From: Anaerolineae bacterium
Lineage (GTDB): Bacteria; Chloroflexota; Anaerolineae; Anaerolineales; Villigracilaceae
Direction: 5' to 3'
DNA: 35,504 nucleotides
Assembly (NCBI GenBank): GCA_017303735.1
Contig: JAFLCF010000022.1
Coordinates: 1-35,504, forward strand
Of the stretch, positions 13,329 to 32,415 are shown one piece after another. Each line of letters begins with the position of its first letter. Positions within the stretch are counted from its first letter, which is position 1. The position numbers and the translations under genes are program-made. Below the pieces are notes generated by a model, which ran no database searches, was not told the DNA's origin, and worked only from the letters and a program-made list of their open reading frames with translations.

Positions 13329-14027
13329 CTATCCTTCACACGGACCGTCGTGCGCAATCAATCCGTTGCGCACCACAATGCGGCGCGGAGTCTGGCAGGC
13401 GAGTTCGTCGTTGTGCGTCACCATCACGAGTGTTTTGCCCTGATCTACCAGATGGCTGAAGAGGTTGAACACATCATCGCTGGTTTGTGCGTCGAGATTG
13501 CCTGTTGGTTCATCTGCCACGATGAGAGGCGGGTCGTTGGCGAGCGCGCGCGCAATGGCAGCGCGTTGCTGCTGTCCGCCAGAGACGTTACCAGGCAGTT
13601 TCTGCGCCTGATCCGCCAACCCGACCAGTTCCAATAAATGCATGGCGCGTTCCTTGCGTTGTTTCTTCGGCAGGGAGTTGGCAAAGTCCATCGGCAAAAT
13701 AATGTTCTGCAACAAGTTCAATGAAGGCAGTAGTTGAAAGAACTGAAAGACAATTCCCACCTGCGTCCCGCGCCAGATCGATAACTGCTCTTCGTTCATG
13801 GCGTGGATGGGTGTGCCGTTCACATACACTTCGCCGCTGGTCGGGTGGTCAATGCCCGTGATCATGTTCAGCAGTGTAGATTTGCCATTGCCCGAAGGTC
13901 CTACAATGGCGAGAAACTCGCCGCGCATGGCTTGCAACGACACGCCCTTTAAAACACTAACCTTCCCGCCAGCCAGCGGGAAATCTTTGGTCACATTGCG
14001 GATTTCAATGATTGGAGTTTGATTCAT
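13329..14027 (-). CDS. ABC transporter ATP-binding protein (MacB/LolD type)
   Basis: This 232-residue ATPase has all core motifs: Walker A GPSGNGKS at 43-50, the Q-loop in FQFFQ near 95, signature VSGGQQQR at 148-155, Walker B LIVADE at 168-173 and a switch His in VTHND near 205. Length and motifs fit the MacB/LolD/FtsE subfamily that pairs with FtsX-type permeases. Its ATG overlaps the stop of the carotenoid oxygenase (ATGA, 14024-14027), so translation of enzyme and transporter is coupled. Confidence 0.93.
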
Positions 14028-15463
14028 GCATTCTCTTTTTCAGGCAAGTATATGCCGTGATATCCGATCAACACGGGCTGTGGAATCTCGGCACGCGAAA
14101 TTTCTTCAAAGGTCATAGGGTTCAGCACTAAAAGGAAAGACGTGCCGCGCTTCGCATCCAAAACGACGGAGAGGATCACGCCATCATCCTCGGTTGTCCG
14201 CCCTGGCTTGGGCACGAAGATCGGCTCGCCTGGGTAGCAATGTTCTTCCGCCCACGTTTTCGTTTCGCGGGTCTGGATGTCCACCTTTACGAGTTGATTG
14301 TAGAAACCCTGCCGCCGCTTCTCGTTGATGCTGATGGAATATACATAGCGATAATCTGCACGCAGGTTGTAGTTGGTGTAATCGAAATGTGGCAATTCCA
14401 TGCAGACATTGGAAATGGTCTCGTACGTCACTTTTACGCCGCGCTTTTTGCCCGCCTTCAACGGCAGGCGATAGCGGCGTAAATTGCCGAACGGCAGTTC
14501 CGATTTTGCATCTTTGATCTTGTCGAGATAATACGATTGGATGATGCTCGCATCTTCATAGGCGGCAATATCCAAAACCACTTCGTCGCCCTGCTCAAAG
14601 GCGTTGACGTGATGAAACGCAAAGAACGCCTCTGTGTCATATTGTGCCGCCACTTCACCCGTGCCGCGATGCACAAGCCAGATGCGTGTGCCGCGTTTCG
14701 GTTCCCAGTGAAAATTCTCGATGTATGGCTTGAGCCACAGGAGTAGGTCAATGGGGTTGACCACCAGTGGAAACTCGGCAAGGATGAAGTAATTTTGCGT
14801 CATGCCGAAACTGTGCATGTAGGCGGGTTTGGTCACAGGCACCGAGCCGATGCGCTGTGTCTTGCCTGTGTTACTCACACTGTGAATGTTATAAAAACTG
14901 ACCGCGTTGTAACGCGTCACCACGTTATAGGCTTCGCGACGCGACTCGTCCAAGTGCGGATGCACCGTGGTCATCTGCCCGACGCGGTTCTTTTCATATT
15001 GAAACACGCCCGCTGTTTCCAATGTCTGCGGGTCGAATGCCACCTGAATGGGCGTCTCTGCCAGCGCCATCACCTGCCCCGCAAGGTGGGAAATGCTCAC
15101 CTTGGCGCTGTCAGTAATGTCTGGGCGAAAGACCGCCATCGCCCGCCCGAACAAGCCGCGGCACGGGTCGGTGGCGAATTCCGAAAAGGAGATGCGTCCC
15201 TGCGCTTTGGCTTCCGCATAGGAACGGTTCCGCAAAAATTTATTCGCATACGAAACGTTCCCGTTTTGAAAACTGAACTTGTGCAGCATGGCAAGCCCGT
15301 CGAACCAATGACGGTAATGCTGCCCGCCAACCTCGAAAGTGCCAGGTCCGTTGCGCAGCAGTGTGCCGCTCAACCACTCAGGCATCCGTCCGCGCAAGGG
15401 CAGGGAGGGGATATCTAGTTCTGCTTCCGTTTTGCCAAAGCCCAGCGAGAAGAAATCACTCAT
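14024..15463 (-). CDS. Carotenoid cleavage oxygenase (RPE65/apocarotenoid oxygenase family)
   Basis: This 479-residue beta-propeller enzyme retains the four iron-binding histidines expected of the family: His168 in TTVHPHLD, His217 in YMHSFGMT, His284 in FHHVNAFE and His469 in GYHGIYLP. LRNGPGTFEVG near the N-terminus is another family hallmark. These non-haem iron enzymes split carotenoids or apocarotenoids with O2 to aldehydes such as retinal. Its place 11 bp after crtI and overlapping an ABC ATPase implies it acts on the operon's own carotenoid. The cleavage position cannot be predicted, and no rhodopsin gene is in the window. Confidence 0.92.
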   Translation of the reverse strand: MSDFFSLGFGKTEAELDIPSLPLRGRMPEWLSGTLLRNGPGTFEVGGQHYRHWFDGLAMLHKFSFQNGNVSYANKFLRNRSYAEAKAQGRISFSEFATDPCRGLFGRAMAVFRPDITDSAKVSISHLAGQVMALAETPIQVAFDPQTLETAGVFQYEKNRVGQMTTVHPHLDESRREAYNVVTRYNAVSFYNIHSVSNTGKTQRIGSVPVTKPAYMHSFGMTQNYFILAEFPLVVNPIDLLLWLKPYIENFHWEPKRGTRIWLVHRGTGEVAAQYDTEAFFAFHHVNAFEQGDEVVLDIAAYEDASIIQSYYLDKIKDAKSELPFGNLRRYRLPLKAGKKRGVKVTYETISNVCMELPHFDYTNYNLRADYRYVYSISINEKRRQGFYNQLVKVDIQTRETKTWAEEHCYPGEPIFVPKPGRTTEDDGVILSVVLDAKRGTSFLLVLNPMTFEEISRAEIPQPVLIGYHGIYLPEKENA

Positions 15464-15474
15464 CGGATTTGATT

Positions 15475-17022
15475 CTAGTCCTGACCCGCATTCATGGCGG
15501 GAGCGGCGCGATACGTGGATGTGCGAGCCGCTTCAGACTCCGCCCCGGCTTGGATCAAGTTGGCAGCGATCTTTCCCGAGGCTAGAACAGCGGGGACGCC
15601 TGCACCTGGGTGGGTTCCCGCGCCGACGAAATACAGGTTGGGGAATTCCTCCGAGCGGTTATGCGGACGCAGCCACGCGGATTGCATCAGGCTGGGGCGC
15701 ACCGAGAACGCCGCGCCGCGATAACTGTTGAGCACATTCTTGAAGTGTAATGGATCAATGTGGTGCAAAGCAACGATGTTTTCCTGCAAGTTGGGTAAAT
15801 ACTTGTCTTCAAGGAATTGCAGGATGCGGTCACGGTAGGGGATTGCCATCTTCTCCCAATCCACGCCGCCGAGATTCTTGGCAAGCACGGGCACAGGCGA
15901 AAGGACATAAAAGCCTTCGTGACCTTCAGGGGCAATAGATGGGTCGGTGATGGTCGGCATGTGCAGGTAAAGTGAGAAATCATCGGGCAGGCGTGTACCG
16001 CCGAAGATCTTCGACAACAGCGTCTTGTATTCCTTGTTAAGGATGATGTTGTGATGCGCCAGTTTGCTATCCAAATAGCGGCGTTTGGTGCCGAAGTAAA
16101 TCACGAACAGCGACATGCTGTACTGCATCGCATCAATGCGCCAGTTTGGGTACACGCGGCGGTGTTCTTCCTTGATAAGGTAGCGATAGGTCGAAGCCAC
16201 ATCGCCATTCGAGACAACGATGTCGGCAGGAATGAACGTCCCATCGCCCATGCGAATGCCGACCGCTTTGCGGTTCTCGATGACGATCTCGCTTACTTCG
16301 GCATTCAAGTGGATTTTGCCGCCGAGTTCTTCAAATAATTTGCCCAGCGCGCGGACAATGGCGCCCGTGCCGCCTCTGGCGTAATGCACGCCCCATTGCT
16401 TCTCGAATTGCACGATCAATGTGTAAATGGAGGGCGTATCGAATGGGTTACCGCCGATCAGCAGGGGGTGAAACGAGAACACGCGCCGCAGGAATTTGTC
16501 CTTGATATATTTCGAGACCATGCCATGCGTGGATCGCACCGCGCCCATTTTGAACATATCAGGCATGATGGCGAGCATGTCTTTTAGTTTTAGGAACGGT
16601 TTCTCGGTGTATGGCTGGAATTTGGTGAAGATCTCCACCGTTTTTTCGACGAACTTGAGGTAGCCTGCTTTGTCGGCAGGATTCCAGCGTTCGATCTCGT
16701 TGAGCATGTCTTCGGTTTGGTGACGGTAATCGAACGATTTGCCTTCTTCGTTGAAGATGCGGTAGAACGGGTCAAGCGGAATCAACTCCATGTAATCTGC
16801 CATCTTGCGTCCCGCGTTCTCGAAGAGTTCCTCGAACATGTACGGCGCGGTGATGACGGTTGGTCCGCCGTCGAACTTGAAGCCGTTGATCTCGTACTGG
16901 TAGGCACGCCCGCCCAGTCTGTCGCGTTTTTCGAACAATTGCACGTCATGCCCCTGCGTGGCAAGGCGGACTGCCGCCCCCAAACCGCCAAATCCGCTGC
17001 CGATTACGATCACTTTTTTCAT
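15475..17022 (-). CDS. crtI: Phytoene desaturase (CrtI type)
   Basis: This 515-residue FAD enzyme has the dinucleotide motif GSGFGG at residues 8-13 and a CrtI-type N-terminus continuing through LGGRAYQYEINGFKFDGGPT. The C-terminal motif YFVGAGTHPGAGVPAVLASG is typical of bacterial carotenoid desaturases. It desaturates phytoene stepwise toward neurosporene or lycopene at the membrane. A GAGG site lies 8 bases before the ATG, and the gene is 24 bp downstream of crtB. A related diapocarotenoid desaturase or CrtO-like role is less likely given the adjacent crtB. Confidence 0.93.
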   Translation of the reverse strand: MKKVIVIGSGFGGLGAAVRLATQGHDVQLFEKRDRLGGRAYQYEINGFKFDGGPTVITAPYMFEELFENAGRKMADYMELIPLDPFYRIFNEEGKSFDYRHQTEDMLNEIERWNPADKAGYLKFVEKTVEIFTKFQPYTEKPFLKLKDMLAIMPDMFKMGAVRSTHGMVSKYIKDKFLRRVFSFHPLLIGGNPFDTPSIYTLIVQFEKQWGVHYARGGTGAIVRALGKLFEELGGKIHLNAEVSEIVIENRKAVGIRMGDGTFIPADIVVSNGDVASTYRYLIKEEHRRVYPNWRIDAMQYSMSLFVIYFGTKRRYLDSKLAHHNIILNKEYKTLLSKIFGGTRLPDDFSLYLHMPTITDPSIAPEGHEGFYVLSPVPVLAKNLGGVDWEKMAIPYRDRILQFLEDKYLPNLQENIVALHHIDPLHFKNVLNSYRGAAFSVRPSLMQSAWLRPHNRSEEFPNLYFVGAGTHPGAGVPAVLASGKIAANLIQAGAESEAARTSTYRAAPAMNAGQD

Positions 17023-17046
17023 TTCAAAATCCTCTTATCGTTTTTT

Positions 17047-18057
17047 TTATTCAGTTATAGACTTCCACCAGATGACAGGCAGGAGTTTTAGTTTGGTAAG
17101 TTTGCTGGTATGGGCGCGGCGGGTGAATACGTCGTAGTCGTTCTTTTCGATCTCATCGAGAATGCGGGCGTAGAGGATGCCCGCGGCATAGGTAGCGAAA
17201 CGTCCGCTTTTATCGAGCAGTTTCACGCCCGGCAGGGAGGTGGCATACAGTTCGCGGGCGCGTTCGATCTGGAATTTCATGAACTGCCGCCAGTTGTCCG
17301 TGACGCGCCCTGCGGCAATGTCCTCTTCGCGAATTCCGTAGGTGACGAGCTCTTCACGCGGCAGGTATAAGCGTCCCATGCGGTAGTCTTCGCCTACGTC
17401 ACGAAGGATATTAGTCAATTGCAAGGCAACGCCAAGGCGGATGGCGTATGGCATTGCCTGCTGATGGTGGAAGCCGATGATGTGCATGGACATCAATCCC
17501 ACCGTGCTGGCAACACTGTAGCAATATTCCGCCAGTTCCGAAAAGGTCTGGTAGCGCTTGACGGTGAGGTCCATTTTCACGCCTTCGATCAATTGCTCGG
17601 CGTAAAGGGTGGGGATCGAATGTTTGAGGCAGGTGACATGCCATGCAAGAGCGACCAGGTTCTTCTCGTCAGGATGGAAGCGGGTGGTCTTCATTCGCCA
17701 TTCTTCAAGGTTTGCAGAGGGATCGTCGCTTTCCGGTTTGTCCATGATGTCATCGCATGCGCGGCAGAAGGCGTACAATGCGTGGATGGAACGGCGTTTG
17801 ATGTGCGGCATTAATGCGGATGCCATATGGAAGGTCTTGCTGTTGCGGCGTGTAATTTCCTCGCAATGCGTGTATGCCTGCTCGAGCAAGTCCGCGCATG
17901 CGGTGTGTTCCTTGAATGGGTGGGCGATATGGTGAAGACCTGCCTTTGCCATTTCAAGCAGGGAGTGTTCCCACTCGTGAGGGATGACCGAGTGTGAGGC
18001 GTGCAGGTCGGTCTGATGATGTGCCTGCTGTGCGTATTCCATCTTCTCTCTATCCAA
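17047..18057 (-). CDS. crtB: Phytoene synthase
   Basis: This 336-residue prenyl synthase has both Asp-rich motifs: DDIMD at residues 102-106 in YAFCRACDDIMDKP, and DVGED at about 220-224 in TNILRDVGEDYRMGRLYLP. It condenses two geranylgeranyl diphosphates to phytoene, the first committed carotenoid step. The N-terminus carries about 50 extra residues, rich in His, before the conserved domain. It heads the operon crtB-crtI-oxygenase-ABC. The upstream 11-bp repeats at 18112-18139 point to regulated, possibly light-dependent, expression. Squalene/dehydrosqualene synthase is the alternative, but the CrtI partner favours phytoene. Confidence 0.93.
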   Translation of the reverse strand: MDREKMEYAQQAHHQTDLHASHSVIPHEWEHSLLEMAKAGLHHIAHPFKEHTACADLLEQAYTHCEEITRRNSKTFHMASALMPHIKRRSIHALYAFCRACDDIMDKPESDDPSANLEEWRMKTTRFHPDEKNLVALAWHVTCLKHSIPTLYAEQLIEGVKMDLTVKRYQTFSELAEYCYSVASTVGLMSMHIIGFHHQQAMPYAIRLGVALQLTNILRDVGEDYRMGRLYLPREELVTYGIREEDIAAGRVTDNWRQFMKFQIERARELYATSLPGVKLLDKSGRFATYAAGILYARILDEIEKNDYDVFTRRAHTSKLTKLKLLPVIWWKSITE

Positions 18058-22587: not shown

Positions 22588-23094
22588 ATGGAACTTTTAT
22601 CTGATTTTCTCGCATGGGCTTGGGCGCGTCATCACAACGTTTTGAGTTGGTACATCCGCCCGTTGTTTATCCTCCCTTATATCTACTTTGCTTACAAGCA
22701 AAGCTGGAAGGGATTGGTTGTGACCGTGATCGCACTCGCCACCAGCATGTTCTGGTTCCCTGCACCTGAAACGGTTGACCATATGGTGGAACAATTCCTG
22801 CAGGCAGAGCGTGACTATCTGCTTGGCACATGGGGCATAGGCAAGGTTTTGCTCACGTTGACCGTGCCCGCTTTCTTCTACTTCCTCGCACTGGCGTTCT
22901 GGAAGCGCTCGTGGTGGTGGGGCGTGGCGGTCATCAACTTGGCGGCATTGGGCAAGATCGCCTGGAGCGTTGCTGAAGGCGGTGAGTCTGGCTGGGCAGT
23001 ACTCATCCCTGCGGTGATCGGCATGTTGATCTGTGATGCGGCTGTCTATTTTGGAGTGAAGTTCGTTAATCGTAGAAAAATGCAAACAGCATAA
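22588..23094 (+). CDS. Small integral membrane protein, unknown function
   Basis: This 168-residue protein has about four or five hydrophobic segments, and its early sequence is rich in Trp, His and Tyr (AWARHHNVLSWYIRP). It has no motif I recognise. A strong AAGGAG site lies 9 bases before the ATG. It is 59 bp after the hydrolase on the same strand and is followed by a strong terminator, so the two probably form a two-gene unit. Confidence 0.75.
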   Translation: MELLSDFLAWAWARHHNVLSWYIRPLFILPYIYFAYKQSWKGLVVTVIALATSMFWFPAPETVDHMVEQFLQAERDYLLGTWGIGKVLLTLTVPAFFYFLALAFWKRSWWWGVAVINLAALGKIAWSVAEGGESGWAVLIPAVIGMLICDAAVYFGVKFVNRRKMQTA

Positions 23095-23103
23095 GCAATA
23101 TAA

Positions 23104-23153
23104 AAGAGATGCCAGAAGTTTGCCCGTGATGGACTTCTGGCATCTCTTGTTTT
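23104..23153 (+). terminator. Strong bidirectional rho-independent terminator
   Basis: A perfect 16-bp stem (23104-23119 with 23133-23148) and a 13-base loop are followed by GTTTTTGG on the plus strand and TTTATATT on the minus strand. It lies between convergent genes. Confidence 0.9.
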
Positions 23154-23185
23154 TGGAATATTCCCCTTCGAGGACGATGTCGATG

Positions 23186-23220
23186 ATTCGATATTCGAGG
23201 TTCGAATACTCGAGTATCGT
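23186..23220. repeat. TTCGA heptad repeat with hairpin potential
   Basis: TTCGA recurs at 23187, 23194 and 23201, a 7-bp period. An 11-bp inverted repeat (23189-23199 with 23209-23219, one mismatch) overlaps it. It abuts the comM remnant and may mark the junction of the duplicated segment. Confidence 0.5.
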
Positions 23221-23229
23221 TTTGTTTGA

Positions 23230-23421
23230 ATATCTCTGGCAGTTTGCACACGCTTGCGGATTATCTCGCTGGTTTCGCCGAGTTTATTTCTGCTGAGTTT
23301 TTTGTAATCAACTCTGGGGACTTCGATGTGGATGTCGATGCGGTCTAGCAATGGACCGGAGATGCGCTTTTGGTATTTGGTGACGACAGTCGGGGCGCAG
23401 GTTCAGGGTTTTTGAGAATTT
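23230..23421 (-). pseudogene. Decayed internal fragment of comM (partial duplication)
   Basis: This 192-bp stretch aligns without gaps to 31157-31348 of the intact comM, with about 19 mismatches by hand count (roughly 90% identity). It encodes the same peptide segment (CAPxVVTKYQKRISGPLLDRIDIHIEVPRVDY...ETSE) on the same strand. It lacks both ends of the gene and has a TGA where the intact gene has a Cys codon before TCAP. It lies between the terminator at 23104-23153 and the 3' end of the OmpR-type kinase. Together with those elements it fills the 368-bp gap. Confidence 0.85.
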
Positions 23422-23462: not shown

Positions 23463-24899
23463 TTAGCCTTGTAGTACAGACTGGAATCTCATTTTCACAG
23501 TGCATCCTCTGCCTGGTTCACTTTCCATATGGATCTCGCCATCCATGCCATCAACAAGCGCTTTTGCAATTGACAATCCCAACCCAAAGCCAGGCATGAC
23601 AGCATCTTCTTCACCTCGGTAGAAACGGTCAAAGACATGGCTAAGTTTTTCAGGAGAAATGCCTTCTCCAAAATCCTGCACGTGGATCTCAATCGCTGTG
23701 CCCTCCTGTTTTGCTGTGACATTCACATTGCTGGATGAATGCTTCAAGGCATTGTCGAGTGTGATGAGAAGTACCTGCTTGATGGCATCACGATCTCCCA
23801 TGGACTTCAATCGGTGTGCAGCGTCAAGACTGATTTCACGCTGAAGGTCTAGTTGACGTGCCTGACGAATAACCTCCTCAAGCATGGACGATATATCTAC
23901 AGGTTCTTTGGCAAGACTGCGACCCGCATCTGCACGGGCAAGCAGTAACAAGTCATTGACGAGGCGGATGAGTCGGTCGCTTTCATCGACCATGTCGCTG
24001 AGAATATCAGCTTGTATTTCTGGAGCTGGGCTGCGTTTGAGAAGCCCGAGATTTCCGCGTAAAGTTGTGAGTGGTGTGCGTAATTCATGCGAGACATCGG
24101 CAACAAAATTACGCTGCATTTCGAGGGAGCGTTCCACTTTTTGGAAGGCGTCTTGCAGACGCGAGAGCATGGCATTAAAGGTACTTGCCAATTGACCTAC
24201 TTCGTCCTGTGGACCTGTGTAATCGACCCGGCGGGCGAAGTCGCGTTCATTGCCGATGGCTTTGGCAGTTTGGGTAATGCGATGAATGGGAGTAAGGGTG
24301 ACGCCTGAGAACAACCAGCCGATCCCAAAGGCGATCAATGTAATAAGGGAACCTGCAATGAGCAAGGTCGTAACGAGGGACTGGAGTGTGCGATTCCGTT
24401 CAGTAAGCGGACGAGCAACCTGTACGATATATGTGACTTCATCGTTCACAATAACCGGGCGGCTATAGATAAGCATTTCTTCGTCAGCGACCAGCTCTGT
24501 TTGCCACCAGTCACTGCCGCCTTGAAGGGTTTGTAATCCTTCCACACTTAAGGGTAATTCATCTTCTTCACGCCCAAATGGACTGGCAACCAGATTGCCC
24601 AGCGGGTCGAGAATGCGAGCGATCTCACGTTCAGGGAAAGCTTGAAAATCTCCGTTTGAAAATTCGTCAAAGGAAACCGGCGGCTGTTGCCCATCCTCTG
24701 GAGGCGGGGCGGGGCGCTCATCGGGAGAATCAGACCGAAGCGCGGCGTCGGCTGTTTTATTGGCACCCATTTGCAGGTCCTGTTTGAGCGAATCGAGGGT
24801 GGACTGTGCCTGAATGGTATAGAGCGTGAATCCAAAGACGGTCAACGTCAGTGCGAGGATGAATGTATAAAGGAGGGTAAAACGCAAACGGATGGACAT
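23463..24899 (-). CDS. Sensor histidine kinase (HAMP-HisKA), OmpR-type system
   Basis: This 478-residue protein has a transmembrane helix at about 7-30, an extracytoplasmic sensor of about 140 residues rich in acidic residues and Pro, a second helix at about 174-196, and HAMP (197-250). The HisKA motif VADVSHELRTPL carries phospho-His271. HATPase boxes follow, including an FGEGISPEKLSHVF G1 box and GFGLGLSIAKALV. It is one base-overlapped (TAATG) with the response regulator upstream. The gene organisation and its targets suggest an envelope or phosphate-related signal, but the sensor domain matches nothing I recognise. Confidence 0.94.
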   Translation of the reverse strand: MSIRLRFTLLYTFILALTLTVFGFTLYTIQAQSTLDSLKQDLQMGANKTADAALRSDSPDERPAPPPEDGQQPPVSFDEFSNGDFQAFPEREIARILDPLGNLVASPFGREEDELPLSVEGLQTLQGGSDWWQTELVADEEMLIYSRPVIVNDEVTYIVQVARPLTERNRTLQSLVTTLLIAGSLITLIAFGIGWLFSGVTLTPIHRITQTAKAIGNERDFARRVDYTGPQDEVGQLASTFNAMLSRLQDAFQKVERSLEMQRNFVADVSHELRTPLTTLRGNLGLLKRSPAPEIQADILSDMVDESDRLIRLVNDLLLLARADAGRSLAKEPVDISSMLEEVIRQARQLDLQREISLDAAHRLKSMGDRDAIKQVLLITLDNALKHSSSNVNVTAKQEGTAIEIHVQDFGEGISPEKLSHVFDRFYRGEEDAVMPGFGLGLSIAKALVDGMDGEIHMESEPGRGCTVKMRFQSVLQG

Positions 24900-25576
24900 T
24901 ATTCCTCTCGCAACACATACCCAATGCCGCGCACCGTTTGAATGAGACGCGGACTGCCATCGACTTCGAGTTTCTTGCGCAGGTAGCCAATATAAATTTC
25001 AAGGACATTGTCATCGCCGCCGAAGTCGTAACCCCAGACATCGTTGAGGATCTGACGGCGTTCGAGTACTTGGCGCGGATGGCGCAGCAGTAAGTGCAAT
25101 AGATTGAATTCGGTAACTGTAAGGTTTAATTCTATTTCACCGCGTTTGGCTTCATGTGTTGTGGGGTTGAGGGTGATATCTGCGTATGCAGCTGTTTGAT
25201 TTTCAGGTTTGGCTTTCACCCGCCTCAGCATGGCATGGACACGTGCCACAAGCTCGGCTGGCGCAAACGGTTTCACGAGGTAATCATCAGCGCCGCTTTC
25301 GAGCCCTTCGACGCGGTTCTCAATGGCATCACGAGCTGTGAGCATCAAGATCATGGTCTTGTCTTCTTCATCGCGCAGGCGTTGGATGAAGGAGACACCG
25401 TCCATTTTAGGCATCATCCAATCGACGATGATCAGGTCAGGCTTGTGGGTTTGTACAAGCGGCAAAGCTTCCAACCCGTTGGCGGCGGTAAGCACTTCGA
25501 GGTTTTCATAGGTTAGCGTGCGCTGAAGCATTTTTAAGAGTTTGGGGTCATCGTCAATGACAAGTACGGCAGGCAT
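24899..25576 (-). CDS. OmpR/PhoB-family response regulator
   Basis: This 225-residue protein has a receiver domain with acidic pocket D8-D10 and phospho-acceptor D52 (VDWMMPKMDG). A winged helix follows at about 130-223 (TVTEFNLLHLLLRHPRQVLERRQILNDVWGYD and the IGYLRKKLEVDG recognition region, ending in TVRGIGYVLR). Members bind tandem direct repeats at an 11-bp period. Such repeats (TTCACAG) occur in its own promoter and in front of three facing operons, making it the obvious candidate regulator. Leader of about 27 nt. Confidence 0.96.
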   Translation of the reverse strand: MPAVLVIDDDPKLLKMLQRTLTYENLEVLTAANGLEALPLVQTHKPDLIIVDWMMPKMDGVSFIQRLRDEEDKTMILMLTARDAIENRVEGLESGADDYLVKPFAPAELVARVHAMLRRVKAKPENQTAAYADITLNPTTHEAKRGEIELNLTVTEFNLLHLLLRHPRQVLERRQILNDVWGYDFGGDDNVLEIYIGYLRKKLEVDGSPRLIQTVRGIGYVLREE

Positions 25577-25609
25577 GGGGTCTCACTTTTCTTCATATTA
25601 TCACAGCCA

Positions 25610-25643
25610 ACTATAAATAAGATTCCTGTGAAAACACTGTGAA
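25610..25643 (-). promoter_or_regulatory. Autoregulatory promoter of the OmpR-type system
   Basis: On the minus strand two perfect TTCACAG boxes (25643-25637 and 25632-25626) lie 11 bp apart. Exactly 10 bp after the second comes TATAGT (25615-25610), a -10-like hexamer. The layout is the same as in the three promoters at 25912-25967, 26937-26981 and 29073-29128. Confidence 0.7.
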
Positions 25644-25731
25644 GTTAATACGAGAAATTCCACATATATTTCTTATCGGGCATTCAGCGTTTTTTGGGCA
25701 AATTCTTAGATTGATTTTCTATACTACCTCA

Positions 25732-25882
25732 TCCAACCAGATCGGTTGAAGAAAGGAGTGCCTAGCGACCTTAATCGCTTCAGTGTTTCGATCCTGGAAA
25801 GGAGGTGCGACCCGTAGCGTAAAAGAAATTCCATAAGCAAGTTAAGCGTCCCGCGTAGTGAATGCGCGGGACGCTTTTTTTG
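25732..25882 (+). ncRNA. Candidate small RNA ending in a strong terminator
   Basis: A TATACT hexamer at 25720-25725 would start a transcript near 25732. The RNA would begin with a small hairpin (25734-25738 with 25744-25748). It carries two GAAAGGAG(G) purine tracts (25751-25758 and 25797-25804) and ends in a hairpin with T7. No ORF longer than about 20 codons is present. It matches no riboswitch or RNA family I know. It is separate from the DUF4405 transcript, whose promoter lies downstream. Confidence 0.4.
25844..25882 (+). terminator. Rho-independent terminator of the candidate small RNA
   Basis: An 11-bp perfect GC-rich stem (25845-25855 with 25865-25875, extendable by one A-T pair) with a 9-base loop is followed by seven T. 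It ends no annotated plus-strand gene, which is why a small RNA is proposed. Confidence 0.88.
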
Positions 25883-25891
25883 TTTGCGACC

Positions 25892-25967
25892 TTCACAAGA
25901 AGTTCACATTCTTCACAGAATTTATACAGACCCTTCTTGGTTTCTTCACAGGCGTGACTTCTACAAT
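25892..25967 (+). promoter_or_regulatory. Promoter of the DUF4405 operon with 11-bp phased boxes
   Basis: In-phase 7-mers are TTCACAG (25912), TATACAG (25923), TTCTTGG (25934) and TTCACAG (25945), each 11 bp apart. After 10 bp comes the -10 TACAAT (25962-25967). Two extra boxes, TTCACAA (25892) and TTCACAT (25903), are 11 bp apart but 2 bp out of phase. Confidence 0.7.
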
Positions 25968-26041
25968 GCGGGTGTTCGAAAAATAAACCGTCAAAATACC
26001 CGCATATGAACTAGCGGGAATCGAAAGGAAAACTAAAAATC

Positions 26042-26563
26042 ATGAACACTTCAACCAAAACCAACCTTGTGCTGGATCTGACCATCTTCACCGCTTTTCT
26101 TGCCATCGCCAGCCCCAAACTGACCGGCAACACCATCCACGAATGGTTGGCGGTGGCATTCGGAGCCGCCATTGTTACCCATCTGCTCTTCCACTGGAAG
26201 TGGCTGGTGAACGTGACCACGAAATTCTTCCAGAACTTCTTCAACCAATCACGCCTCAACTATCTAGTGGATCTGCTCTTCTTCTTCGCCATGACCGGCG
26301 CGCTCTTAAGCGGATTGATGATCTCAAAAGATGTAATGTCCTTCCTCGGCATTCAATTGAGCGTCAGCCATAGCTGGGAGAGTCTGCACCGCCTTGCTTC
26401 AGATGCATCCGTTATCTTGCTAGGCATTCACTTTGCTTTGCACTGGAAATGGATCGTCACCAATGTCGGACGTTATGTTGTTAGCCCTGTTGCAAGTTTG
26501 TTCAAAGTTCGCGGACAGAAACCCGTTGTTTCCATGAGCTTACAGACCTCAAAGGAGAAATAA
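26042..26563 (+). CDS. DUF4405-like multi-helix membrane protein, possible haem b binder
   Basis: This 173-residue protein has about four hydrophobic helices. The motif HxxxHWKW occurs twice, THLLFHWKW (His47, His51) and IHFALHWKW (His130, His134), with further His110 and His116. Paired helix histidines suggest haem b ligation as in cytochrome b561-like proteins; DUF4405 members are often annotated this way. The leader of about 68 nt contains a CCCGC/GCGGG hairpin (25999-26018) and an AAAGGAAAA ribosome site. It is followed after 2 bp by a small membrane protein gene. Its role may be transmembrane electron transfer or redox sensing, which is inferred. Confidence 0.75.
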   Translation: MNTSTKTNLVLDLTIFTAFLAIASPKLTGNTIHEWLAVAFGAAIVTHLLFHWKWLVNVTTKFFQNFFNQSRLNYLVDLLFFFAMTGALLSGLMISKDVMSFLGIQLSVSHSWESLHRLASDASVILLGIHFALHWKWIVTNVGRYVVSPVASLFKVRGQKPVVSMSLQTSKEK

Positions 26564-26565
26564 TC

Positions 26566-26889
26566 ATGAAGACCATTTTGCGAATCCTCGTTATTCTGCT
26601 TATTGCAGTCAGCGTTTCCGGCGGAGTCTACGCCTTGGTTGAAAACACCAGCCTTATGTCCAGTGCCGAGGCGGAGCGCGAAGCGCCTCCTCAAATGACC
26701 GATGTAGATGCCCAATCCATGCCGACCCGTCCTGAAGGCGGAGATGACCATCATGCGGCTTCCCTGTCTGGCGGCTTGGGTGAAGTGGGTGCGTTGCTTG
26801 CAAAGATCACGGGAATCACCATCGTCATCCTGCTTGTTCAAAAAGCCCTTGAACTTTTGCGCAAACCGAAGTTGAACCCCACGTTGTAA
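26566..26889 (+). CDS. Small two-helix membrane protein, unknown function
   Basis: This 107-residue protein has an N-terminal hydrophobic helix or signal anchor (about 4-24). A polar middle follows, rich in Glu, Pro and Asp with a DDHH patch near residues 64-67, and then a second hydrophobic helix (about 78-98) with a basic tail. It begins two bases after the DUF4405 stop, preceded by AAAGGAG, so the two are co-translated and probably work together. No family is recognised. The strong terminator at 26895-26930 ends the unit. Confidence 0.75.
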   Translation: MKTILRILVILLIAVSVSGGVYALVENTSLMSSAEAEREAPPQMTDVDAQSMPTRPEGGDDHHAASLSGGLGEVGALLAKITGITIVILLVQKALELLRKPKLNPTL

Positions 26890-26894
26890 TTTTT

Positions 26895-26930
26895 GTAGCA
26901 CAAGCCGATCGGCTTGTGCTACTTTTTCTC
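26895..26930 (+). terminator. Rho-independent terminator after the DUF4405 operon
   Basis: A 12-bp perfect stem (26895-26906 with 26911-26922) around GATC is followed by TTTTTCTC. It isolates the DUF4405 unit from the next promoter, which starts 7 bp later. Confidence 0.92.
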
Positions 26931-26936
26931 AGTAAA

Positions 26937-26981
26937 TTCACAGCCATTTCTTGGCTTGCCCACAGCGCTGGTTTATAGAAT
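26937..26981 (+). promoter_or_regulatory. Phased-box promoter of the small-protein/lipoprotein operon
   Basis: TTCACAG (26937), TTCTTGG (26948) and CCCACAG (26959) are each 11 bp apart, then 10 bp to TAGAAT (26976-26981). Transcription would begin near 26988, 20 bases before the ATG of the 56-aa protein. Confidence 0.72.
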
Positions 26982-27007
26982 GACTACATAAGAAACGGAG
27001 TAATCTC

Positions 27008-27178
27008 ATGACCCTCAAAACCAAACGCAACCTCCCGCTCGTCCTGCTGCTGATCGCCATTCTGCTGTTCATGGCAGTTGGGATGGGCAATCAAGTCATC
27101 ACCTCTTACACCATCACCCCTGCCACCGTGCAAGTTTGGACGGCAAACCTCGCCACCTCACTTATGGCGGCGCAATAA
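27008..27178 (+). CDS. 56-aa single-helix membrane or secreted protein
   Basis: A 57-codon frame begins with ATG, preceded by ACGGAG 7 bases upstream and about 20 bases after the predicted transcription start. The product has a basic start (MTLKTKRN), one strong hydrophobic helix (about residues 9-25: LPLVLLLIAILLFMAVG) and a Thr/Ala/Val-rich tail that could be extracytoplasmic. It lies 18 bp before the lipoprotein gene and under the phased-box promoter. No family is recognised. Being the first gene of a regulated operon with its own ribosome site makes it likely real. Confidence 0.65.
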   Translation: MTLKTKRNLPLVLLLIAILLFMAVGMGNQVITSYTITPATVQVWTANLATSLMAAQ

Positions 27179-27196
27179 ATTTGGAAACCTACAACC

Positions 27197-29032
27197 ATGA
27201 AAAAACTAATCATTCTCTTTTTGACACTTTCCCTCGCGCTCACTGCCTGCGGAACAACAACTGTGGAATCAACCACCTCTGCCACCACGACAGATACCAC
27301 GGCTCAAACCGCGCCAGTCACTGCCTCTGAACCCCTAGTAGTTTCCTACGCTGATGAAGACGAAACCCCTGCCTTGGCAGAGACTGCAGTAAAAATTATT
27401 CTTGCAGGTGACTCCATTACCGTGGAAGGCAGCGGCGCAACCGTCAACGGTTCGACGGTTACCATCACAGCACCTGGCGTTTACAACTTCACCGGCACAC
27501 TAAACAACGGACAGATCGTTGTGGATACCGACCAGGAAGGAACTGTCAACCTCATTTTAGGCGGCGTGAATATCACCAATTCCACCACCTCGCCGATCTT
27601 CATCTCCAGCGCTGACAAGACCATCCTCACCCTGGCTGAGGGTAGCCAAAATGTCGTCACAGACGGCGCGACCTATGTCTTCACCAGCGCCGAAGTGGAC
27701 GAACCCAACGCCGCGATCTTTAGCAAAGATGACCTTGTCATTAACGGCAGCGGTTCGTTAACCGTCAATGCCAATTACAACAATGGCATTGCCAGCAAAG
27801 ATTATCTGCGCATCGTCAGCGGCAACATCACTGTAAACGCCGTCAATGATGGCATCAAAGGCAGGAATTATATCGCCGTAAAAAATGCAACCATCACGGT
27901 CAATGCCGGAGGCGATGGGCTTCAATCGAATAACGACGAAGACGCCACCAAAGGTTATATCTTGATCGAAGGCGGTACATTCAATATCACCTCAGGGCTG
28001 GACGGTATTCAAGCCGAGACTCAACTCACAGTCAATGGCGGTGTGCTCAATCTCGTCACCGGCGGCGGAAATACGATCAACTATGAATCTGAGGAAAGCG
28101 CCAAAGGGTTGAAGGCAGGGGTAAGCGTGACGATTGCAGGCGGCACGATCATCATCGACTCGGCTGATGATGCTGTTCATGCGAACGGAAGTATCGTGAT
28201 CAGTGGCGGCGACTTGCAGATCACCTCTGGCGATGATGGCATCCATGCTGATGTGGCTATCACGGTCAACGATGGGAATGTGAACATCATCAAAGCATAT
28301 GAAGGCATCGAAAGCGTTCTCATCACGATCAATGGTGGCAATATCCACCTCAATACAGAAGATGACGGCATCAATGGCTCAGGCGGTGTGGATGGCTCGT
28401 CTGTTAATGGGCGACCTGGGCAAAACCAGTTCGCAGCGGGTAATGCACAGGTCTTTCTCAACGGCGGCTATTTGGTTGTGAATGCACAGGGCGATGGCTT
28501 GGACTCGAACGGAACGATGGCAATGTCTGGCGGCACGGTCATCGTCAATGGTCCCACCAACAATGGCAACGGCTCGCTGGACTTTGGTACATTTGATATT
28601 ACTGGCGGTTATTTGATCACAGCAGGCAGTTCGGGCATGGCACAATCTCCAAGTACATCGTCCACACAGTATTCGGTGATGTATAACTTCGATACGATGC
28701 AACCTGCGGGTACGCTGGTGCATATTGAGACCGAAAACGGTGAAGAAGTCCTTACCTTTGCTCCGGCGAAAGAGTTTCAATCCGTTGTTGTGTCTTTGCC
28801 TGAACTGGTGAACGGCTCCACTTATCTTGTATTCCTTGGTGGAAGTACAACAGGCACGCCGATCGATGGACTGTATTCAGATGGCTCATATACTTCAGGT
28901 TCGCAGCTTGCCAACTTTACCATCTCCAGTGTAGTGACTACTTTGGGTGCGGCAGGCGGGTTTGGTCCCGGCGGGGGAATGCCTCCAGGCGGTGGTGGAA
29001 TGCCTCCTGGCGGCACACCACCACAACCGTAA
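27197..29032 (+). CDS. Cthe_2159-like carbohydrate-binding beta-helix lipoprotein
   Basis: This 611-residue protein has a lipoprotein signal: hydrophobic 4-17 and lipobox LTAC with Cys18. A Ser/Thr/Ala-rich linker follows, then about 450 residues of short repeats such as DGIKGRNYIAVKNATITVNAG and GSIVISGGDLQITSG, with D-G-I/L turns typical of a right-handed parallel beta-helix. Cthe_2159 of Clostridium thermocellum is a calcium-dependent polygalacturonate/cellulose-binding protein of this sort. The C-terminus is a Gly/Pro/Met tail (PGGGMPPGGGG...). Expected location is the outer face of the membrane. No strong ribosome site is seen; coupling to the 56-aa ORF is plausible. Confidence 0.85.
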   Translation: MKKLIILFLTLSLALTACGTTTVESTTSATTTDTTAQTAPVTASEPLVVSYADEDETPALAETAVKIILAGDSITVEGSGATVNGSTVTITAPGVYNFTGTLNNGQIVVDTDQEGTVNLILGGVNITNSTTSPIFISSADKTILTLAEGSQNVVTDGATYVFTSAEVDEPNAAIFSKDDLVINGSGSLTVNANYNNGIASKDYLRIVSGNITVNAVNDGIKGRNYIAVKNATITVNAGGDGLQSNNDEDATKGYILIEGGTFNITSGLDGIQAETQLTVNGGVLNLVTGGGNTINYESEESAKGLKAGVSVTIAGGTIIIDSADDAVHANGSIVISGGDLQITSGDDGIHADVAITVNDGNVNIIKAYEGIESVLITINGGNIHLNTEDDGINGSGGVDGSSVNGRPGQNQFAAGNAQVFLNGGYLVVNAQGDGLDSNGTMAMSGGTVIVNGPTNNGNGSLDFGTFDITGGYLITAGSSGMAQSPSTSSTQYSVMYNFDTMQPAGTLVHIETENGEEVLTFAPAKEFQSVVVSLPELVNGSTYLVFLGGSTTGTPIDGLYSDGSYTSGSQLANFTISSVVTTLGAAGGFGPGGGMPPGGGGMPPGGTPPQP

Positions 29033-29040
29033 TTTTCCTC

Positions 29041-29074
29041 ATAGAACAAGTCTACCGACTTGTTCTATTTTTTT
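29041..29074 (+). terminator. Terminator overlapping the next promoter's first box
   Basis: A 12-bp perfect stem (29041-29052 with 29057-29068) and TACC loop are followed by a T7 run. The last two T of the run are the first bases of the TTCACAG box at 29073. Confidence 0.9.
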
Positions 29075-29128
29075 CACAGCAACTTCACAGGCTTTTCTTG
29101 GGTTTCCCACAGGCTCTTTTTTTAGAAT
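29073..29128 (+). promoter_or_regulatory. Phased-box promoter of the VTC/DUF4956 operon
   Basis: TTCACAG (29073), TTCACAG (29084), TTCTTGG (29095) and CCCACAG (29106) are each exactly 11 bp apart, followed after 10 bp by TAGAAT (29123-29128). The start codon is at 29135, about where transcription should begin. Confidence 0.75.
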
Positions 29129-29134
29129 GTAATC

Positions 29135-29905
29135 ATGTCGAACAAACTCAGTCATACCATCCGGCGTTTCAATCGTTTCGAATTGAAATACCTGCTCACT
29201 CTTAAGCAGGCAGAGATTTTCAAGAAAGCCTTGCGTGCCTATCTGCTCGCTGATGAACATGGCAATGGACGTTACGAACTCGCCAGCCTGTATTATGACT
29301 CGCCAGACTTTCGCTGCTATTGGGAAAAAGTGGATGGCGTGCGCTTCAGACGAAAACTTCGCATTCGCCGCTACGAAACGCCGGGTACCCCGCTGACAAC
29401 GGACACGCCCGTTTTCGTGGAGATCAAACAGCGTGTAGATCGAGTGACTCAGAAGCGCAGAGTCATCCTTCCGTATGGAGAGGCGTTGCGGCTGTGTAAT
29501 CGGCGTCAGTACCCCGAACAGGTTGCGGCAGAGGACGAAGCGGTAGTGGATGAGATTTATGCTTATCTCTGGCAGTACAACCTGCGCCCGGTCAGCATTG
29601 TGCGCTATGAGCGTCAGGCATTCATCGGCACCGAGTACGACCTCGGTTTACGTGTCACCTTTGATACCTCGCTTAATTATCAAGTTCATCAACTGCGCCT
29701 GGAAGAAGAAGTCTCGAGCCTGCCTATGGTCTCACCGGATCGTACCGTGATGGAGATCAAGGTTAACGAGCGCATTCCCTACTGGCTGACGGAGATGATC
29801 GCGGCACACGACCTGAGGATGATCCGCATCAGTAAATATTGCCGCAGTATCGAACTGGCGAACGGATACGCCGATACCTTTTCACGATTTGCACTTGTTG
29901 CATAA
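29135..29905 (+). CDS. VTC-domain protein (polyphosphate-polymerase-like)
   Basis: This 256-residue protein of the triphosphate-tunnel (CYTH/VTC) fold has the basic and acidic tunnel strands FNRFELKYLL (7-24 region), ASLYYDS, FRRKLRIRRY, FVEIKQRVD, KRR, and a final VMEIKVNERIP strand. VTC4 of yeast makes polyphosphate from ATP; bacterial single-domain homologues are often annotated as polyphosphate polymerase. No ribosome site precedes the ATG, which falls about 7 bases after the -10, so the mRNA is probably leaderless. It is followed by DUF4956 in the same transcript, a common pairing. Confidence 0.88.
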   Translation: MSNKLSHTIRRFNRFELKYLLTLKQAEIFKKALRAYLLADEHGNGRYELASLYYDSPDFRCYWEKVDGVRFRRKLRIRRYETPGTPLTTDTPVFVEIKQRVDRVTQKRRVILPYGEALRLCNRRQYPEQVAAEDEAVVDEIYAYLWQYNLRPVSIVRYERQAFIGTEYDLGLRVTFDTSLNYQVHQLRLEEEVSSLPMVSPDRTVMEIKVNERIPYWLTEMIAAHDLRMIRISKYCRSIELANGYADTFSRFALVA

Positions 29906-29920
29906 AAAATGGAGAACATC

Positions 29921-30601
29921 ATGGATATTTTCAACCTTCAAGACCTCACCGCAGAATTCTCGGTGCTCGATATTGCCATTGTCATGACGCTTAGCTTTGT
30001 CTTGAGCGTTTTCATCGGCTGGGTGTACAAGATTACGCATCGCGGCACTTCGTATACCCAGAGTTTTGTTTTCACGCTTGTCATCAACGGTATGGTGGTG
30101 GCATTGATCATGATGATCGTCGGTTCAAATATTGCGCGGGCGTTCTCAATGGTGGGGGCGTTGTCCATCATTCGCTTTCGGAATGCGGTTAAAGAAACCC
30201 GCGACGTGGGTTTTATTTTCTTCGTCATGGCAATCGGCATGGCGATCGGAACAAAATTCTATTTATTGGCGATTACTGGTGCAGTGGTCATTAGCTTGAT
30301 GATCATTGTCATGATGCGTTTGGATTGGTTTGCGCGTGAAATGGCGAGTCAGACCCTGCGTATTCAAGTCCCGAGCAGTATGCCGTTCGACACCCTCTTC
30401 GACAAGCCTTTTGTTAAATATGCTCATACCTCTGAGTTGATCAGCGTCGATACCATTCAAAGTGGAGCCATGACCGAGTTGACCTACAGCATTGGTTTGA
30501 GAAAATCTAGCCATGTGAATGACTTCCTCTCTGAATTGCGCAGTCTGAACGGCGGTAATAAGATCACACTCATCGCCGGATACAACAGCACCGATCTCTA
30601 A
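29921..30601 (+). CDS. DUF4956 membrane protein
   Basis: The protein has 226 residues from the ATG at 29921, chosen over the ATG at 29909 because GGAG lies 6 bases before it. It has about four hydrophobic helices in the first 130 residues, with a conserved-looking SMVGALSIIRFRNAVKETRD turn between them, then a soluble domain of about 90 residues. DUF4956 proteins typically sit beside VTC-domain proteins. A role as the membrane partner or channel of polyphosphate synthesis is a common guess but unproven. The upstream VTC stop is 15 bases away. Confidence 0.88.
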   Translation: MDIFNLQDLTAEFSVLDIAIVMTLSFVLSVFIGWVYKITHRGTSYTQSFVFTLVINGMVVALIMMIVGSNIARAFSMVGALSIIRFRNAVKETRDVGFIFFVMAIGMAIGTKFYLLAITGAVVISLMIIVMMRLDWFAREMASQTLRIQVPSSMPFDTLFDKPFVKYAHTSELISVDTIQSGAMTELTYSIGLRKSSHVNDFLSELRSLNGGNKITLIAGYNSTDL

Positions 30602-30891: not shown

Positions 30892-32415
30892 TCATCCCAT
30901 CATTATCTTCGGACGATATTGCAGCGCCTCCGCCAGATGCGTGGATTGGATCTCTTCGCTGCCAGCCAGATCTGCGATGGTGCGGGATAGTTTGAGGATA
31001 CGGTGATAGGCGCGTGCTGATAGGTTGAGTTGACTCATCGCCGCTCGCATCAAGCTCTGACCATCGGGTTGGAGTTGGCAAAATTGCCTGACCTCGCCGA
31101 TGCGCATATCTGCGTTGCAGACAATATCCGTGGAATTGGCGAAGCGGTGATTTTGTATATCTCTGGCAGTTTGCACGCGCTTGCGGATGGTTTCGCTGGT
31201 TTCACCGAGTTTATTTCCGCTGAGCTTTTCGTAATCGACTCGCGGAACTTCGATGTGGATGTCGATGCGGTCGAGCAATGGACCGGAAATGCGCTTTTGA
31301 TATTTGGTGACGACGGCGGGGGCGCAGGTGCAGGGTTTTTGAGAATCTCCATGATAGCCGCAAGGGCAGGGATTCATGGCGGCGATCAGTTGAAAGTTTG
31401 CAGAAAACGTTAATGAGCCTTTGGCGCGGCTGATGGTGACGACTTTATCTTCCATCGGTTGGCGCATTACTTCGAGGACGCGAGTGCCGAATTCGGGGAA
31501 TTCGTCGAGGAATAAAACGCCTCTGTGTGCTAATGAAATTTCGCCGGGTTTGGGGATGTTGCCTCCGCCGACGAGACCGGCATGAGAGATGGTGTGATGT
31601 GGTGAACGAAACGGACGATGTTTAATTAATGGAGTCCCTGCAGGGAGTTGATCTGCTACGGAATAAATTCTTGTAACATCGAGAGACTCTTCGATGGACA
31701 TTTCGGGTAAGATGCCGGGCATGGCACGAGCCAATAGTGTTTTGCCCGCACCGGGCGAGCCGACGAGAAGACAGTTATGCCCACCTGCGGCAGCGACTTC
31801 GAGCGCGCGTTTGACGTGTTCCTGTCCTTTAATTTCGGCGAAGTCTGTGGGGGTGAAGAGCGGCTCGACGGAGTCGCTGGAGGGTTGATAAGGCTGAATG
31901 AGATGCCGACCAGACAAATGGTCGTAGAGATGCGCAAGCGATTTAACCGGGAAAACTTCCAGGTCGGGAATCAAAGCCGCTTCACCGGCATCCACTTCGG
32001 GGACGAACATCCGCTTGAATCCATTGGCGCGGGCGGCGGCTGCCATGGGCAAAACTCCGCGCGTGTGACGGACGACTCCATCGAGGGAGAGTTCGCCGAC
32101 GAACATCGCGCCTTCGATAGTTTCTTGCGGAAGAAACCCGGCGAGGATGACGACACCCAATGCGATAGGTAGATCGTAGGCAGGACCTTCTTTGCGAATG
32201 GCGGCGGGGGATAAGTTGACGACGATGCGGTGACGTGGAAAATTGAGCCCGGCATTTTTGACGGCGGTTTGCACGCGTTCACGGCTTTCTTGAACGGCGG
32301 CATCGGGCAAGCCAACAATGACGACGGCGGGGAGACCGTTGGTGTAATCTACTTCCACTTCGACGATGACACCTTCAAGACCCACTACGGCGCATGAATA
32401 TACTCGGGAGAGCAT
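30892..32415 (-). CDS. comM: YifB/ComM-family Mg-chelatase-like AAA+ ATPase
   Basis: This 507-residue protein has an N-terminal Lon-protease-like ChlI domain (about 1-170), then an AAA+ core with Walker A GSPGAGKT at 219-226 and Walker B GVLFLDEFPEF. A cysteine cluster, CPCGYHGDSQKPCTC, is typical of the family, and a C-terminal helical domain follows. In naturally competent bacteria ComM is a hexameric helicase promoting branch migration during transformation. The ATG is 4 bp after the stop of the PAS kinase with no clear ribosome site, implying coupling. A decayed copy of 192 bp of it lies at 23230-23421. Confidence 0.95.
   Translation of the reverse strand: MLSRVYSCAVVGLEGVIVEVEVDYTNGLPAVVIVGLPDAAVQESRERVQTAVKNAGLNFPRHRIVVNLSPAAIRKEGPAYDLPIALGVVILAGFLPQETIEGAMFVGELSLDGVVRHTRGVLPMAAAARANGFKRMFVPEVDAGEAALIPDLEVFPVKSLAHLYDHLSGRHLIQPYQPSSDSVEPLFTPTDFAEIKGQEHVKRALEVAAAGGHNCLLVGSPGAGKTLLARAMPGILPEMSIEESLDVTRIYSVADQLPAGTPLIKHRPFRSPHHTISHAGLVGGGNIPKPGEISLAHRGVLFLDEFPEFGTRVLEVMRQPMEDKVVTISRAKGSLTFSANFQLIAAMNPCPCGYHGDSQKPCTCAPAVVTKYQKRISGPLLDRIDIHIEVPRVDYEKLSGNKLGETSETIRKRVQTARDIQNHRFANSTDIVCNADMRIGEVRQFCQLQPDGQSLMRAAMSQLNLSARAYHRILKLSRTIADLAGSEEIQSTHLAEALQYRPKIMMG

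Follow-up and report, generated by a model that had tools for sequence, protein, structure and literature searches.

The question raised by this locus is whether a single two-component system governs, through one type of promoter, the several transcription units that lie beside it. The locus belongs to an Anaerolineae bacterium of the Chloroflexota, and the window (the whole stretch of DNA that was analysed) comprises 35,504 nucleotides of contig JAFLCF010000022.1. An OmpR/PhoB-type response regulator (24899-25576, minus strand; Response_reg and Trans_reg_C domains above the Pfam cut-off) is encoded next to a sensor histidine kinase (23463-24899, minus strand; HAMP, HisKA and HATPase_c domains by Pfam) whose gene overlaps the end of the regulator gene, and the pair is divergent from three units encoding a DUF4405 membrane protein with a 107-residue protein, a 56-residue peptide with a Cthe_2159 family lipoprotein, and a VTC-domain protein with a DUF4956 membrane protein. 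We consider it quite likely that this regulator, the presumed box binder, recognizes arrays of short boxes, activates the units behind promoters P2 to P5, which lack a good -35 element, and regulates its own synthesis from promoter P1. An initial annotation of this DNA had proposed a compact regulon of four promoters; all four are confirmed, and a fifth, degenerate array at 25670-25725 had been missed.

The arrangement of the arrays was computed directly from the sequence. In P1 to P4 boxes of 7 bp step every 11 bp, and, as the initial annotation had stated, the last box is followed in all four by exactly 10 bp and then the -10 hexamer. P1, the promoter of the regulator-kinase pair (25643-25610, minus strand), reads TTCACAG-N4-TTCACAG-N10-TATAGT. 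The other three, all on the plus strand, have four boxes each: P2 (25912-25967) reads TTCACAG-N4-TATACAG-N4-TTCTTGG-N4-TTCACAG-N10-TACAAT, P3 (26926-26981) reads TTCTCAG-N4-TTCACAG-N4-TTCTTGG-N4-CCCACAG-N10-TAGAAT, and P4 (29073-29128) reads TTCACAG-N4-TTCACAG-N4-TTCTTGG-N4-CCCACAG-N10-TAGAAT. The phase and the box counts given earlier are therefore correct for P1, P2 and P4, but P3 has four boxes rather than three. P5 (25670-25725, plus strand), the putative promoter of a small RNA, is a degenerate in-phase array of four boxes followed by N10 and TATACT.

These regularities are not those of random sequence. All six same-strand pairs of YYCACAG lying no more than 60 bp apart in the whole window are spaced by 11, 22 or 33 bp, and the combination of two boxes, N10 and a -10 occurs four times in the window versus not once in any of 300 dinucleotide-Markov sequences. 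A 56-column matrix built from 17 sites, all of them from other genomes, gives 60.9 bits for P4, 54.8 for P3 and 47.8 for P2, against a null maximum of 3.0 over 4 million positions; the two-box P1 obtains only 6.4 bits on this four-box matrix. Because the regular expression that yielded the 17 seed sites was derived from the window, these scores are partly circular for the last box and the -10, and not for boxes 1 to 3.

The pattern recurs in relatives. A scan with the VTC protein yielded 67 loci. Of the first 30, which are mostly from Chloroflexota, 20 encode an ortholog of the regulator (64-85% identity) upstream of the VTC gene on the opposite strand, and 19 of these 20 also encode the kinase; the presence of DUF4405, the small proteins and Cthe_2159 varies among the 20. 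In the 26 Chloroflexota-type loci (L001-L030 minus L020, L025, L028 and L029) YTCACAG is followed by a -10-like hexamer 44 times, in 25 of them after a gap of 10. The matrix made 37 hits above 9 bits; alignment A1 contains 28 of these and omits nine that were weaker or had two boxes. The 28 sites align ungapped, with 1.4-1.7 bits per column in the boxes, 1.6 in the -10 and 0.3-0.65 in the spacers; box 3 is TTCTTGG in 14, box 4 is TTCACAG or CTCACAG in 21, and the -10 is TAGAAT in 16.

It could be supposed that the boxes are a chance pattern, or a terminator-linked repeat that spreads, since the boxes of P3 and P4 run into terminator T-runs: that of the stem at 26895-26922 (plus strand) abuts the first box of P3, and at P4 the T-run of the stem at 29041-29068 (plus strand) and the first box merge. 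Three promoters (P2, P3 and P4), and not two as reported earlier, are directly preceded by a terminator-like stem, of 12-14 pairs. Terminator-like sites in the region number four, versus a shuffle mean of 4.2, so what argues for these terminators is the length and place of the stems and not their number. Against a chance or repeat origin stand the 300 random sequences with no occurrence, the conservation of the boxes and not of the spacers over the 28 sites, and the strict link to the regulator described below; we regard such an origin as negligibly probable, and the array pattern is very probably real and recurrent in relatives.

Arrays were sought in other genomes with a sequence-only model, R1. 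The number of candidates scored per genome did not exceed 150 for the first 27 genomes, 47 for the 120 genomes of one Chloroflexota family and 22 for 251 genomes of the phylum, so that absences refer to strong arrays only. In the family set an R1 array at E <=0.001 is present in 19 of the 120 genomes, and an ortholog of the regulator (E <=1.3e-100, 68-87% identity) in the identical 19, the next proteins being at most 56% identical (Fisher p 1.7e-22, kinship ignored); four of the 19 (G004, G011, G013, G014) had given sites to R1 and 15 had not. In the phylum set the array occurs in four genomes, the same four that have a regulator of at least 68% identity. By comparison, 41 control VTC loci, 40 of them with DUF4956, have no regulator above 44% identity and no array score above 1.1 bits. 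This co-occurrence, together with the two-box promoter found no more than 140 nt from the regulator gene in 13 of the 20 regulator-bearing loci, supports the earlier proposal that all units answer to a single local OmpR-type regulator.

Six further phylum genomes encode a relative of the regulator at 57-63% identity and give no R1 match. In each of them the fetched locus has its best array of four boxes at 11 bp (24-26 of 28, versus a maximum of 22-24 in its own shuffles) upstream of that relative; the array points away from it in four of the six, and in five it is followed by N10 and TAGGCT, TACACT or TACGCT. The geometry of the array thus seems to be more widespread than the letters of its boxes. 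At loci L194-L198, regulator relatives of 57-60% identity are accompanied by 11-bp arrays of the TTCTCAG/CTCTTG type, several with a CTTG-like third box. There are hints that the unequal box 3 is old.

Several observations nonetheless weigh against the local regulator as the activator of all five promoters. Seven of the 20 regulator loci lack a two-box promoter within 140 nt, and of these L014 has a box pair about 170 nt away. P5, at 2.0 bits, is weak, being the fourth best plus-strand position and below the null maximum of 3.0. Among the first 27 genomes there is an R1 match at E <=1 in 26, the exception being G020; a whole regulator was found in 18 of 23 and in four more, and that of G018 is divided between contig ends. 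G027 has the regulator and only a weak four-box match (E 0.36). No regulator was found in G001, G002, G003 and G020, and the first three have the array, G020 being without either. In G001-G003 missing sequence is the likely explanation, since the loci of G002 and G003 begin at contig starts and G001 has only three regulators of this type at E 1e-25, versus 11-13 in G002, G003 and G018. Lastly, of the residues N, V, E, S, Y and Y with which PhoP reads bases, the window regulator keeps five of six, but paralogs of 55-56% identity share most of the recognition helix, so that the helix alone does not single out the local regulator. Two paralog rows, L158 and L162, are absent from alignment A3.

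The recognition helix invites the alternative that a paralogous OmpR-type regulator binds the boxes and that the local pair is merely one of its targets. Paralogs of 52-56% identity occur widely, and the helix of two of them retains N-V-L-E-V-Y-x-x-Y. However, none of the 101 paralog-only genomes of the family set has the array, which follows the regulator ortholog, and it is relatives of that ortholog, at 57-63% identity, that the looser arrays adjoin; a paralog as the principal binder is therefore quite improbable, and the local regulator remains the favoured candidate.

How the local regulator might act is suggested by the geometry of the promoters. Once activated by the adjacent kinase, it would bind head-to-tail on the 7-bp boxes every 11 bp and, from a last box that ends 10 bp short of the -10, would help RNA polymerase to start in spite of a poor -35, presumably through contact with sigma. 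In none of the five promoters does a hexamer at 16-18 bp from the -10 match TTGACA at more than two of six positions, in keeping with the claim of the initial annotation that the array replaces the -35; at 19 bp, P2, P3 and P4 have TTGG-type hexamers that match three or four of six. The converse possibility, that the regulator is a repressor that blocks polymerase and whose departure raises transcription, draws on the extent of the arrays, from about -62 to -23, where a bound protein would be expected to compete with sigma region 4. But without an activator these promoters would have no -35 at normal spacing, and their geometry fits activator promoters of the PhoB and SARP types (PMC4415409, PMC10936776). 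Repression is accordingly rather improbable, and the promoter geometry argues for activation.

Under activation the two-box P1 would serve autoregulation, the four-box arrays would drive the DUF4405 operon (P2), the peptide-Cthe_2159 operon (P3) and the VTC-DUF4956 operon (P4), and the weaker array of P5 would drive the small RNA. The arrays form a natural series, with two boxes at the regulator itself, four at the main targets and a degenerate set at the small RNA, which should be useful for relating the number and identity of boxes to promoter output. The start predicted for P4 (7 nt beyond the end of the -10, at 29135) is the A of the VTC start codon (window 29123-29137), and the VTC mRNA of the window may therefore be leaderless; in most relatives 20-60 nt separate the -10 from the VTC start.

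What the response is for can be approached through the genes that the arrays precede. P2 is followed by the DUF4405 membrane protein (26042-26563, plus strand; PF14358, E 7.8e-13), which is cytochrome b-like: H33, H47, H51, H116 and H134 are present in all of 12 sequences and H130 in 11. A purified DUF4405 homolog has heme b spectra (PMC11334425), and together with the conserved histidines this supports a heme-type protein in the window, as the initial annotation had proposed. The 107-residue product of the second gene (26566-26889, plus strand) has no Pfam match, and its homologs adjoin DUF4405. Behind P3 lie a 56-residue membrane-type peptide (27008-27178, plus strand) without a Pfam match and the Cthe_2159 family lipoprotein (27197-29032, plus strand; PF14262, E 1.4e-102). 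Membrane-type peptides of 48-79 residues starting M(T/S)LK(F/T)(K/R)R recur behind arrays (the window peptide and those of L003, L006, L010, L099, L180 and L181); as an idea only, such small proteins could modulate the kinase. P4 precedes the VTC-domain protein (29135-29905, plus strand; PF09359, E 3.7e-48), a putative polyphosphate polymerase by domain and by a profile match to yeast Vtc4 (3g3q, E 4.2e-8), with many Lys, Arg and Glu residues invariant across 18 VTC sequences; single-sequence searches of the PDB with the VTC and DUF4405 proteins gave no match. The next gene encodes the DUF4956 membrane protein (29909-30601, plus strand; PF16316, E 3.9e-16), which, on the precedent of the yeast VTC complex, may move the polyphosphate that the VTC protein is predicted to synthesize.

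A broader sample of targets comes from 77 matrix sites above 12 bits at 60 loci. The first open reading frame (ORF) could be assigned for 71 of them, and encodes a VTC protein in 28 cases, DUF4405 in 13, a small peptide in 6, the regulator in 1, Cthe_2159 in 1 and other products in 22; the remaining six have no ORF by the rule of the script, one of them (L178) having a shorter peptide start. The 60 loci were mostly picked for holding hits, so that the tally describes the hits and is no test of enrichment, and some of the 22 other ORFs are probably spurious. By Pfam the other genes include those for CotH, an HtrA-like Trypsin_2 plus PDZ protein, a GT2, GtrA and NAGPA combination, a mannosyltransferase (PMT_2/PMT), ABC_tran, HlyD, PAP2_3 and a short Trypsin_2 protein. 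Some targets adjoin the regulator (PAP2 in G038 and G060, HlyD in G052) and others are carried by different contigs. At the position expected for the regulator, G001 has a P1-like promoter facing an HlyD protein that is followed by an ABC ATPase and permease.

The initial annotation had offered phosphate as one possible signal, and the local pair could accordingly be a PhoB-PhoR system in which VTC-DUF4956 handles stored phosphate. VTC is a polyphosphate enzyme family, the top NCBIfam family for the regulator is PhoB (TIGR02154, 222.5 bits), and the polyphosphate regulator PolR of Microlunatus recognizes GTTCAC repeats whose period equals that of the boxes (PMC6754071). The PhoB score is, however, under the cut-off of 296.2, and among the named downstream genes, a list that is incomplete in that only part of the candidates was scored, there is no phosphate-uptake gene. 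Because the identified targets are instead surface, protease, export and glycosyltransferase genes, the phosphate-starvation reading was lowered and we now think it unlikely; a response of the cell envelope or surface is favoured over it, at roughly even confidence.

The unit behind P5 is a putative small RNA of about 150 nt, unannotated, between P1 and P2 (25732-25880, plus strand), which carries GAAAGGAGGTG and ends in an intrinsic terminator stem at 25844-25876. Across the unit and its near promoter 154 of 198 positions agree between the window and locus L001, the flanks having only short box matches. Homologs are present in G001, in G004 (on a contig other than the regulator's) and in G082, leaving aside the matches in G013 and at G082:C1:2513184; a pattern search of 42 genomes gave no more, besides the G013 match. 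The promoters of the homologs are TTCACAG-N10-TATACT in G001, a 41-bit array in G082 and one of 28.5 bits in G004. P5 probably drives the small RNA of the window. All four RNAs contain GAAAGGAGG. The whole unit including the terminator folds better than shuffles (z -3.97), but the body without it shows no excess folding (z -0.01 and -0.86), so that the case for the RNA is made by sequence, promoter and terminator. Rfam gives no match at gathering, and four weak matches were taken as chance. One of the identities considered, OmrA-B, scores 20.2 bits versus a gathering score of 40 and was rejected. A role as a CsrA sponge was also discarded, CsrA being found in none of eight genomes (the control was positive in three of 14), and a match in L110 was read as the ribosome site of an ORF. 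Array-like sites at L187:6807, L022:6618 and L024:5314, all on the plus strand (genomes G051, G022 and G024), lead into stretches without ORFs, which in L187 and L024 have terminator-like ends; these may be further, different small RNAs.

The RNA includes a sequence similar to the complement of a 16S rRNA tail, and in G082 this match covers 15 nt. A joint reading can be built that takes in this match, although we hold it to be doubtful. The system would be a surface-stress regulon with unequal boxes, in which TTCTTGG, the third box, would also serve as a weak -35, at a spacing of 19 bp that becomes productive only with regulator on both sides. The GAAAGGAGGTG(ATCC) motif of the small RNA would copy the complement of the 16S rRNA 3' tail, and the RNA would pair with the anti-Shine-Dalgarno of 30S subunits, or mimic ribosome sites, and so retune translation during envelope stress. 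VTC-DUF4956 would make polyphosphate and move it to the surface.

Two features of the wider neighbourhood may be mentioned. A short ORF at 23046-23351 (minus strand) is near-identical to a stretch (LDRIDIHIEVPRVDY...) of a long ORF at 30892-32415 (minus strand), which we take to encode a ComM/YifB-like ATPase; the short ORF, which flanks the cluster, looks like a partial copy of the long one. Further away, the ORFs at 14024-18057 (minus strand) are presumably a carotenoid cluster, with oxygenase-like, phytoene desaturase-like and phytoene synthase-like products, to judge from the translations.

Several known systems resemble parts of this one. A short terminated RNA expressed from a promoter with response-regulator boxes recalls the OmpR-activated small RNAs OmrA and OmrB, although the GAAAGGAGG motif is not known as an Omr feature. 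We also presume a similarity to MprA, on the MprA box of which a search of open-licence literature found nothing. In the Pel loci of Gram-positive bacteria, CotH, a polyphosphate polymerase and DUF4956 form an accessory group that directly adjoins pelDEADAFG (PMC7112168); here DUF4956 likewise accompanies a polyphosphate polymerase, and CotH belongs to the regulon of one relative, but no Pel genes are among the proteins identified here. The SARP activators (AfsR on the afs box) recognize repeats spaced by 11 bp that lie at a constant distance from the -10, with sigma region 4 docked in place of a -35 (PMC10936776). An OmpR-type DNA-binding domain, the repeat and the fixed distance are shared with the window system, unlike the BTA domain, which is absent from the window regulator (only Response_reg and Trans_reg_C were found), and the SARP 3' repeat lies 8 bp from the -10. 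The pho box of Escherichia coli PhoB is built, as are the window arrays, of 11-nt direct units with seven conserved and four loose positions, and PhoB contacts sigma70 (PMC4415409), but its letters are CTGTCAT, its targets are phosphate genes, and the window regulator falls below the cut-off of the PhoB equivalog.

A close parallel is from Mycobacterium tuberculosis, the source of the best solved relatives of the regulator, PrrA (closest by score) and then PhoP. PhoP, also of the OmpR/PhoB type, binds as a tandem dimer to TCACAGC-N4-TCACAGC with strict 4-bp spacing, and sequences with three or four motifs are bound tighter (PMC4832192); this replaces the Bacillus subtilis PhoP box, the weaker analogy drawn initially. 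The box core, the 4-bp spacer and most of the reading residues are alike, and native PhoP sites are more variable (PMC3413638); the window arrays differ in their fixed 10 bp to the -10 and in their unequal boxes, with TTCTTGG as box 3. Within the open-licence literature, no such regulon was found for the VTC-DUF4956 pair or for DUF4405 cytochromes in Chloroflexota, nothing was found for DUF4956 together with 'VTC domain', and a search on Anaerolineae regulons returned nothing relevant. The present analysis provides a concrete, testable regulon for these genes, and a site model strong enough to find its members genome by genome. We regard the regulon as new, and as one of an already known kind, that of the OmpR/PhoB-type regulators.

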